Assembly (NCBI GenBank): GCA_017643925.1
Contig: JAEPML010000003.1
Location: forward strand, 124,001 to 188,000
Source of the DNA: Roseibium sp.
Lineage (GTDB): Bacteria; Pseudomonadota; Alphaproteobacteria; Rhizobiales; Stappiaceae
DNA: 64,000 nucleotides
Direction: 5' to 3'
Below the pieces are notes generated by a model. The model did no database searches. It was given only the letters and a program-made list of their open reading frames with translations, and was not told the origin of the DNA. The first letter of the stretch is position 1. The number at the start of each line of letters is the position of its first letter. This document shows positions 32,573 to 34,089 of this stretch, in pieces. The position numbers were made by a program, and so were the translations under genes.

Positions 32573-33334
32573 ATGTTTGATTTGAACGGACAGGTCGCGC
32601 TCGTGACCGGCGCCAGCCGCGGAATTGGTGAAGCAGGCGCCCGGAGCCTTGCCAAATACGGCGCCAAGGTGGTTCTGGCTGCGCGGTCAGGTGGGGACAT
32701 TGAGCGCATCGCGGCCGAGATCCGTGACAGCGGTGGCCAGGCGTCTGCGGTGAGCTGCGATGTTGCCGACTATGCGGATGTCGCAAAGGCGGTTCAGCAC
32801 TGTATCGATACCTTTGGCGGCATCGATATCCTGGTAAACAATGCCGGAGTGATCGAACCCATCAGCCGCATCGAGACTTCCGATCCGAAAGCCTGGGGCA
32901 ACGTCATCGACATCAATGTGAAGGGTGTCTATCACGGCATTCGCGCCGTCGCGCCGCATATGCTTGAAAAGGGTGCGGGCACCATCGTCAATATCAGTTC
33001 CGGAGCCGCGGTCGGAGCGCTGGAAGGCTGGAGCCAATACTGTTCGTCCAAGGCGGCTGCCCTGTCGTTGACCCGGTGTGCCGACAAGGAATTCGGTGAC
33101 AAGGGTCTGCGTGTCGTCGGGCTGAGCCCAGGAACCGTTGCCACCCAAATGCAGGTCGACATCAAGGCCTCGGGGATCAACCCGGTCAGCCAGTTGGACC
33201 CTGCAGTACATATTCCGGCCGAATGGGTGGGAGAAGCCATCTGCTGGCTGGCGACGGATGCAGGAGACGCCTATCGCGGGGTTGATTGCTCCCTGCGTGA
33301 CGAGGATGTTCGCAAGTCGGTCGGTGTCATTTAA
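32573..33334 (+). CDS. SDR family NAD(P)-dependent oxidoreductase
   Basis: Classical short-chain dehydrogenase, 253 aa. Nucleotide motif LVTGASRGIGEAGA near residues 11-24, NNAGVIEP, the catalytic serine in NISSGAAVG and the YCSSK tetrad near 156-160. NAD versus NADP is not clear, although Arg in GASRGIG and the following AARSG suggest NADP. It stands alone on the plus strand, diverges from the channel gene and converges on the small 31-codon gene. The substrate is unknown. Confidence 0.88.
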   Translation: MFDLNGQVALVTGASRGIGEAGARSLAKYGAKVVLAARSGGDIERIAAEIRDSGGQASAVSCDVADYADVAKAVQHCIDTFGGIDILVNNAGVIEPISRIETSDPKAWGNVIDINVKGVYHGIRAVAPHMLEKGAGTIVNISSGAAVGALEGWSQYCSSKAAALSLTRCADKEFGDKGLRVVGLSPGTVATQMQVDIKASGINPVSQLDPAVHIPAEWVGEAICWLATDAGDAYRGVDCSLRDEDVRKSVGVI

Positions 33335-33340
33335 GGCATT

Positions 33341-33370
33341 AAAACAAAAGAGGGCCGCAGAGCGGCCCTC
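33341..33370 (-). terminator. Rho-independent terminator of the 31-codon gene
   Basis: A perfect 9-bp GC-rich stem (33350-33358 with 33362-33370, loop AGA). On the minus strand it is followed by TTTTGTTTT. No T-run follows on the plus strand, so it serves leftward transcripts. It begins 31 nt after the stop of the small gene. Confidence 0.85.
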
Positions 33371-33400
33371 CCATGAGATCGATGTGACCCTTGGTCCGGA

Positions 33401-33496
33401 TCAGATCCCGGTGAAACCTTTCAACGCCAGAGGCTGCTCCGGCACCAATCCATTCCACCCAGACACCCGGGCCACGATCGGATACTCATTAGACAT
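33401..33496 (-). CDS. 31-residue peptide gene, unknown function
   Basis: A short open frame starting MSNEYPIVARVSGWNG and ending LALKGFTGI. The start has a near-ideal Shine-Dalgarno (AAAGGAGGTG, 5 nt before ATG), and a Rho-independent terminator lies 31 nt after the stop, so it looks like a genuine, well-translated gene. The peptide has no cysteine, no signal sequence and no clear membrane helix. It lies 113 nt after the DUF302 gene on the same strand and may be cotranscribed, or driven from its own promoter near a 15-bp palindrome. I do not recognise a family. A small structural protein, a modified-peptide precursor or a regulatory leader are all possible. Confidence 0.7.
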   Translation of the reverse strand: MSNEYPIVARVSGWNGLVPEQPLALKGFTGI

Positions 33497-33549
33497 GGGC
33501 ACACCTCCTTTCTGTTGTTGACGATGAGGTCAGTGTGTGACCGTTCGCC

Positions 33550-33564
33550 GCGCTTGCCAAGCGC
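33550..33564. promoter_or_regulatory. Palindrome upstream of the 31-codon gene
   Basis: GCGCTTGCCAAGCGC has perfect 6-bp arms (three-base centre) and sits 54 bp before the ATG of the small gene. A nearby TTTGGCA on the minus strand echoes the TTGGCAA inside it. It could be an operator or a hairpin in a longer DUF302 transcript. Confidence 0.45.
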
Positions 33565-33609
33565 AAATGCCAAACGGCCCCTTGTTCTCAACACACTTTT
33601 CGCACGCTG

Positions 33610-34089
33610 TTACTTGGAAGCCACAGCGCTGTCGGCGATCGTCGCAAATACGCCATCCAGCTCTGCGGCCAGTGTTGCCAATGCATCTCCGCCTTCCTCC
33701 ATGTAGGGCGCAAACACGGAGGTCGGGGTCTTCCAGGAAAGCGTTGCGGTGCCGTCACTGTTTTCCGTCACATAGAACCGGATCGGCGCCTCGATCCCGG
33801 CAGCGATCGACGCTTCCAGCATTCGGACTGCATAGTCGTTGCGATAGACGCCGATGACCCGATTGCCCGGTATGGTCAATCCGCGCCCCTTCGCACCGGC
33901 AGACGCACTGGCCTGCGTCACCAGCAGCATTTTCTCGGCCTTGATGGCCGCCTTGAGGTCGTCGACCAGTTCGCCATAAGCCTTTTGCGTGGGCTTGACT
34001 TCCCATCCCTGACGCGGGCTCAAACTGTCAGCTGCTGCCTGAGACGCAGCAAGCGAGAAAAACAAAAGCAGACCCATTAGAAGACGCAT
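33610..34089 (-). CDS. Exported DUF302 domain protein
   Basis: 159 aa with a signal peptide (MRLLMGLLLFFSLAASQAAA) and GGAG 8 nt before the ATG. The DUF302 fold is recognised from YGELVDDLKAAIKAEKMLLV, then VIGVYRNDYAVRMLEASIAA and IRFYVTENSDGTATLSWKTP. DUF302 proteins are small periplasmic or cytosolic proteins of unknown role, sometimes near sulfur or redox genes. A YeeE/YedE sulfur-transport-type gene lies next to it on the same strand. Confidence 0.85.
   Translation of the reverse strand: MRLLMGLLLFFSLAASQAAADSLSPRQGWEVKPTQKAYGELVDDLKAAIKAEKMLLVTQASASAGAKGRGLTIPGNRVIGVYRNDYAVRMLEASIAAGIEAPIRFYVTENSDGTATLSWKTPTSVFAPYMEEGGDALATLAAELDGVFATIADSAVASK

Follow-up and report, generated by a model that had tools for sequence, protein, structure and literature searches.

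Small mRNAs of the rreB/rreR type are stand-alone small transcripts in which at least 16 nt of complementarity to the 3′ end of the 16S rRNA lie upstream of a tiny frame, with a terminator behind it; they associate with the 30S subunit and are weakly translated. rreB and rreR themselves were reportedly described by Hahn and co-workers in 2017 as small mRNAs with an extended Shine-Dalgarno sequence, and rreB is said to capture the 30S subunit and to have a stability linked to its translation.

CC2171 (RF01867) is a Caulobacter sRNA in Rfam, and an excerpt of a study of Mesorhizobium huakuii also assigns the name to the sRNA MH_s33 (PMC5596092). According to a partial text of Schrader et al. 2014, two previously predicted ncRNAs of Caulobacter are translated (PMC4117421). 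A literature search on rreB and on CC2171/RF01867 found no paper joining the two, the likeliest paper lying outside the search. The locus described here lies in a 64,000 nt stretch of a Roseibium genome, which was analysed as a whole and is referred to as the window. A sequence-only reading had proposed that it is a complete transcription unit for a 31-residue peptide of unknown family.

Structure of the locus

The observation itself is real. The strong ribosome site on the minus strand, the 31-codon frame and the terminator hairpin with its T-run are all present where the sequence-only reading had placed them (Table 1), as are the DUF302 gene upstream of the RNA and the convergent SDR gene, both of which are named by Pfam. 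The SDR gene ends six bases from the end of the T-run. The terminator hairpin is GGGAGGGCCGC-TCT-GCGGCCCTCTT, with 11 pairs, and the terminator is the stronger of two sites within 33200-33800 (0.3 in shuffled sequences). With its tiny frame, promoter-like pair and predicted terminator, the locus may be a stand-alone small transcript of the rreB/rreR-like sort.

Table 1. Features of the locus and of its surroundings, in window coordinates.
Feature	Position	Strand	Remarks
Whole small RNA / small mRNA, ~185 nt	33341..33525	minus	5′ end predicted from the -10 box, 3′ end from the terminator
Promoter-like pair	33532..33560	minus	between the DUF302 gene and the RNA
-35 hexamer TTGGCA	33555..33560	minus	T, T and G in 47, 47 and 45 of 47 aligned loci
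-10 hexamer CACACT, spacer 17 nt	33532..33537	minus	A2 in 41 and T6 in 43 of 47 aligned loci
Palindrome GCGCTTGGCAAGCGC	33550..33564	minus	15 bp, 7-bp arms around one base; overlaps the -35 box
Ribosome site AGAAAGGAGGTG	33502..33513	minus	complementary to the 16S 3′ end over 12 nt; TGCC comes next
ORF, 31 codons + TGA, peptide MSNEYPIVARVSGWNGLVPEQPLALKGFTGI	33401..33496	minus	length appears constrained, residues not
Start codon ATG	33494..33496	minus	
Stop codon TGA	33401..33403	minus	
Folded domain, long interrupted hairpin	33373..33489	minus	predicted by RNAalifold; closing helix 33485-33489 with 33373-33377
Apical hairpin GAG-CAGC-CTC	33430..33439	minus	also the Glu-Gln-Pro codons; invariant pairs, alignment columns 85-87 with 92-94 (RNAalifold)
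Intrinsic terminator, hairpin + T-run	33341..33372	minus	hairpin 33348-33372, T-run end 33341
SDR gene	32573..33334		convergent with the RNA
DUF302 gene	33610..34089	minus	upstream of the RNA
Sulphur-transport family protein PF04143	34177..35334		after the DUF302 gene

Distribution in the Alphaproteobacteria

A 401-base region matched 44 of the 45 genomes of the genus, the window's own included, and in most of them the matched part ran from the ribosome site through to the terminator. Conservation thus extends past strain level, and comparison supports the proposal of a complete transcription unit whose frame is a genuine translational one. The one genome of the genus without a region match (G030) also had no match to the covariance model or to the pattern described below; at 3.6 Mb it is the smallest genome listed. 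The 44 genus loci were aligned with three of one sister genus (47 loci). From these, 38 were used to build a covariance model, omitting five that the extraction pattern had missed (L007, L016, L017, L073, L075) and four near-duplicates (L012, L021, L027, L068). The model matches the window at 33341-33522 with an E value of 2.4e-50, the window sequence having itself been in the model.

Across the order, the model matched 134 of 297 genomes at E ≤0.01 in a search whose filters lose some weak matches, with one match in 130 of the 134. Sixty-four of the order-level hits were read, comprising the best 24 outside the core set and 40 chosen by rank and spread. In four sister genera of the window's family a strong match was present in 11 of 12 genomes. 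Two further sister genera (g6 and g7) had none or only short weak model matches in 26 genomes, and a pattern search in 30 of their genomes (G057-G086) gave no match. The element is thus patchy in the family, being either dispensable or evolved beyond recognition where unmatched. Genera g6 and g7, in which the element was not detected, form a natural comparison set.

The strict pattern AAAGGAGGTGATCCNRTG was found in 58 of 385 genomes of the class, once in each, with no match for the reversed control. In a sample of the phylum it was found in 34 of 249 genomes, these being 34 of the 67 alphaproteobacterial genomes and none of the 182 others. The window's own genome has no match to the strict pattern because it reads GTGTGCC at this position. 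A looser pattern scan of named genomes yielded at least 118 stretches. The 80 matches listed include Bradyrhizobium, Mesorhizobium, Methylobacterium, Bosea, Sphingomonas, Novosphingobium, Erythrobacter, Brevundimonas and Roseococcus, together with two records named only Proteobacteria.

RNA structure

RNAalifold predicted 47 pairs in the whole structure. When the 38 loci were aligned with MAFFT from sequence only, pairing held in 98.3% of cells, and both partners had changed in 16 of the 47 pairs, as against 3-7 in slid controls and a mean of 5.0 in shuffles. In a model-fitted alignment of 68 sequences, which leans towards the model, the figure rises to 44 of 47 (slid controls 19-27). Compensatory base changes hence exceed both the shuffled and the slid controls, as is characteristic of a structured RNA. 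The terminator helix (helix 11 of A2) has both-sided changes at all 11 of its pairs, with 99.6% of cells paired, and a terminator-like hairpin is present in 156 of 169 representatives of a wider set. The window RNA itself has a minimum free energy z-score of -3.56, i.e. 3.6 standard deviations better than shuffled sequences.

The segment before the terminator also pairs better with the start-of-frame segment of its own RNA (mean -15.5 kcal/mol) than with that of other species (-12.2 kcal/mol). On average, own pairing surpassed that with 75% of the foreign partners, and in 63 of the 156 representatives with recognisable terminators it surpassed that with 90% of them. To judge from these comparisons, RNA structure is the strongest conservation signal at the locus. 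In one relative (L130 488-785) the folded domain is interrupted by an insertion of about 110 nt, at the edge of which the 29-codon frame ends.

The reading frame

The covariance model scores no reading frame. Among its non-redundant order-level hits, all 58 frames were 20-31 codons long, a range found in 18.6% of shuffled sequences and in 12% and 5% of the other frames, and they ended in TGA (30), TAA (21) or TAG (7). At the expected start position, 63 of the 64 hits read had ATG (52) or GTG (11); the remaining one, L099, was excluded, as the extraction had cut it at its 5′ end, and its sequence shows the same start. As the model prefers sequences with a conserved start region, the start codon is less independent evidence than the stop. 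The patterns used to gather the 169 representatives demanded a start codon and, in part, a following TC. Of these representatives 80% had 20-31 codons, as against 18% of shuffled sequences and 18% and 16% of the other frames, and 98% had 14-39. Since the frame is kept in all 58 diverged model hits and in 80% of this wider set, its length would appear to be under selection. The longest frames in the wider set, of 56-59 codons, are those of Azospirillum-type pattern hits (L153, L257), which look like secreted proteins and are probably unrelated to the element; within that set they count against the length claim.

All of the 47 aligned loci start with ATG, and 39 have frames of 31 codons and eight of 24-26 codons. 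Five of the 47 have a one-base gap inside the frame or its stop. In L064, L071 and L072 the gap is at the stop, whilst in L011 and L029 a one-base deletion alters the residues after approximately codon 10, swapping out over half of the peptide; both frames still end, at 24 codons. Frame-breaking differences among relatives, which the sequence-only reading had named as a finding that would refute it, do occur. The synonymous-site bias expected of a peptide gene did not appear either. In-frame pN/pS was 1.02 over 37 distinct sequences of the 47 (gapped or identical rows dropped); the two remaining sense frames gave 1.04 and 0.66, and the antisense frames 0.73-0.92. Outside the genus, 341 close pairs (≥75% identical, of equal length and not both from L001-L084) gave an in-frame value of 1.26, the other frames having 0.76 and 0.61. 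Purifying selection on amino acids, with pN/pS well below 1 in frame, was thus not seen in either set.

A tblastn search with the peptide, as the sequence-only reading had suggested, matched 60 of 87 genomes of the family at E ≤1, but many of the weak matches look like chance. Amino-acid identity was lower than nucleotide identity, which gave the first pointer to an RNA. A scan of the peptide against Pfam, the one database scanned, returned no family up to E 0.1. Codon choice in the EQP stretch leads in the same direction. Among 70 representatives matching MS[SNH][EGD], 50 contain [EG]Q[PS], encoded by GAG (43) or GGG (7), then CAG (40) or CAA (10), then CCT (44), TCT (4) or CCC (2). GAA, CCA and CCG are absent from this stretch in the 50 representatives, as would follow from conservation of the apical hairpin GAG-CAGC-CTC. 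The EQP stretch is, by this codon usage, conserved as nucleotides, at the point where the RNA is predicted to fold as a hairpin. Taken together, these comparisons indicate that the frame and its length are selected and the residues are not. The claim of a 31-residue peptide of unknown family is consequently not supported, given the pN/pS values and a conservation signal that is strongest for RNA structure.

The ribosome site

Thirty-five of the 47 aligned loci have AAGGAGGTGTGCCC ahead of the ATG. The 16S 3′ end was read as GGATCACCTCCTTTCT in G121; a search for the tail succeeded in one of seven genomes (the window's own excluded), and it was not found in the window's own genome. Most of the order-level loci read have GAAAGGAGGTGATCC, and in distant relatives this almost complete complement of the 16S 3′ end stands ahead of the ATG or GTG. 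The contiguous match is at least 14 nt in 52 of 63 order-level hits, and mostly 14-15 nt are complementary within the 16 nt compared. In the window's genus the site is shortened, reading GTGTGCC as against GTGATCC, and it is for this reason that the extended 16S match is incomplete there; most order-level relatives read have ATCC where the window has TGCC. The 12 contiguous nt of the window fall short of the 16 nt or more of rreB/rreR-like mRNAs.

Exposure of the ribosome site as a design feature was tested and gained no support from folding. In 90 of the 156 transcripts with a terminator, the unpaired probability was 0.30 for GGAGG, 0.31 for the RNA body and 0.27 for the shuffled body. In the window the GGAGG core is predicted to be mostly paired with the start-codon region. 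The small helix that this pairing would form, from ribosome site to start codon, finds no support in the 68 model-fitted sequences, in which 56.6% of its cells are paired and no both-sided changes occur.

Promoter region and neighbouring genes

The promoter-like pair conserved in the 47-locus alignment is TTG, a 17-nt spacer and yACAyT. A generic consensus promoter scan of the region found no promoter, so the assignment rests on conservation. The RNA need not be co-transcribed with DUF302, since the pair sits downstream of that gene and ahead of the RNA. In a sister genus the neighbours have been lost, which also speaks against such a need. Within flanks of approximately 1-1.5 kb, SDR adjoins the RNA in 39 of the 44 genus loci and DUF302 likewise in 39 of 44; neither is beside it in the three sister-genus loci. 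The PF04143 and DUF302 genes occur together in 33 of the 44 genus loci, within the short flanks examined. Attenuation of a downstream gene was rejected, as the gene beyond the terminator is convergent.

The 15-bp palindrome described by the sequence-only reading is present but is not conserved, with six or seven of the seven arm pairs in only two of the 47 loci. An operator common to the family was accordingly rejected, and the palindrome is a two-species oddity. It lies over the -35 box in the window species (7/7 arm pairs) and its nearest relative L002 (6/7), where the arms differ by compensating changes (GCGCTT/AAGCGC vs ACGCTT/AAGCGT). It is possible that in these two species it is a young operator.

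Relationship to CC2171 and other families

In a narrow search the RF01867 model matched the window full-length (1-159) with 31.1 bits and an E value of 7.7e-5, its cut-off being 75 bits, and a gathering-threshold Rfam search over the whole window gave no CC2171 match. The model matched 12 of 20 chosen loci full-length above its cut-off. A larger search gave matches to 13 of 18 chosen loci at E ≤0.001, with none at that threshold for L001 (the window), L028, L057, L085 and L105. Four loci (L089, L116, L124, L133) scored 36-42 bits, and the Bradyrhizobium-type 14-codon locus L193 scored 44.5 bits (E 2.8e-6), below the cut-off. In the reverse direction, R1, the model of the window's genus, finds the MSHC-type loci L139, L140, L142, L143, L145 and L148 at E ≤4e-7; RF01867 is above its cut-off on all of these except L145, which reaches 69.8 bits. 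By these scores the window element is related to CC2171 by homology, through intermediates. Other Rfam candidates (sau-6072, STnc540, ncS025, DnaX) were rejected, as they match just the terminator, the 3′ part or a neighbouring gene, all below cut-off.

The frames fall into several types. MSHG frames have a median of 18 codons, and the named ones are mostly from Sphingomonadales; other MSH frames have 19-33 codons and mostly start with GTG; MS[SN] frames have 20-31 codons and mostly start with ATG. The Bradyrhizobium loci have a GTG start and 14 codons, such as MSYLKRCHLAGIAR, a gene which resembles rreB. A tRNA lies about 150 bases from two Bradyrhizobium-type loci (L193 1268-1338; L231 7030-7100), and a tmRNA lies approximately 1.2 kb from the relative in one locus (L163 1351-1527 and 2721-3018).

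Discussion

Comparison of the aligned loci shows a promoter-like pair, a leader matching the 16S 3′ end, a start codon and a frame of narrow length ended by any of three stops. It also shows a long, covarying predicted fold that runs from codon 3 and is closed just before the terminator, with amino acids that drift freely. The locus is, in our judgement, likely to be a stand-alone gene for a small, structured, dual-purpose mRNA of CC2171/rreB-like kin, of which translation would be the function and the peptide would not. The sequence-only reading as a whole is thus partly supported.

Such an RNA would be transcribed from its own promoter-like pair, and its long ribosome site could, by analogy with rreB, capture 30S subunits. 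It would then be translated through its own fold, where the transiting ribosome would melt the central hairpin, so that the abundance or activity of the RNA would follow the number of free ribosomes. By this analogy, translation probably ties the stability or activity of the RNA to ribosome availability, and the peptide would be a by-product. A wider proposal places CC2171, rreB and the window element together in a single alphaproteobacterial RNA family, spread across the class, whose frame is kept for translating a set distance rather than for the peptide; it is tentative and we place it somewhat short of probable. If true, the family would be a stand-alone RNA sensor of ribosome availability.

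Three other explanations bear on the same evidence. The 24-31 residue peptide might itself act as a functional small protein, the RNA structure being secondary. An ATG in every aligned locus, the strong ribosome site and the constrained frame length would fit, as would the similar starts (MS[SN][EGD] or MSH) of most representatives. However, in-frame pN/pS is at or above 1 in both sets, over half of the peptide is exchanged through the frameshifts of L011 and L029, EQP is kept as nucleotides, and frames of 14, 18, 21-26 and 31 codons share little past the first residues, which makes a functional peptide quite unlikely. An ordinary trans-acting, base-pairing sRNA would account for the stable fold, the terminator and the Rfam typing of CC2171; here the ribosome site and frame would be accidental, or the site would be a seed for CCUCC motifs in an anti-Shine-Dalgarno sRNA sponge. 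A precedent for a sponge in Caulobacter is CrfA, which an excerpt of PMC12559287 reports to inactivate the sRNAs SisA-D. Yet accident would not hold the frame at 20-31 codons in 58 of 58 diverged sequences, and a pure seed could do without a terminated frame and without a start codon set at a constant distance. We regard this explanation as unlikely.

The long 16S match raises the further alternative of a ribosome decoy, which would occupy free 30S subunits or the anti-Shine-Dalgarno tail, e.g. during slow growth, with translation recycling the RNA. The contiguous match of 14 nt or more in most order-level hits is in keeping with this, as is the single pattern match per positive genome, found only in the class among the samples searched. 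However, in the window's genus the match is cut to 12 nt and the frame and fold persist, and a decoy needs neither a conserved frame end nor a hairpin; we consider it very unlikely. A small dual-purpose mRNA, the reading preferred here, would bring an Rfam 'sRNA' and what looks like an already described small mRNA into one far larger family, mostly with a single copy per genome. Its conserved unit would be the RNA fold, the ribosome site and the frame length together. Small-protein surveys would see a peptide gene in it and RNA surveys a non-coding RNA, each missing half.

Of the known systems, rreB/rreR resemble the window element in being small mRNAs of Alphaproteobacteria whose frame is tiny and whose ribosome site greatly exceeds the usual length, but the window has 12 contiguous complementary bases, ATG rather than GTG and 31 codons rather than 14. 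The rnTrpL-peTrpL pair of Sinorhizobium offers a short RNA with a very short translated frame, of 14 codons in rnTrpL, in excerpts of PMC10117765 and PMC7298713. As presented in the former, however, rnTrpL is a leaderless attenuator RNA before trpE, whereas the window RNA has no in-line downstream gene. CC2171 differs in its middle domains, in being typed by Rfam as an sRNA and in its start codons, MSH-type frames being mostly GTG (50/56) and those of the window type mostly ATG (67/70). It nevertheless shares with the window element a 5′ CAACAA..GAAAGGAGGTG, TG-TCT at the place of the start and second codons and the terminator, and the MSHC-type intermediates that lie above the Rfam cut-off are also found by the window-genus model.
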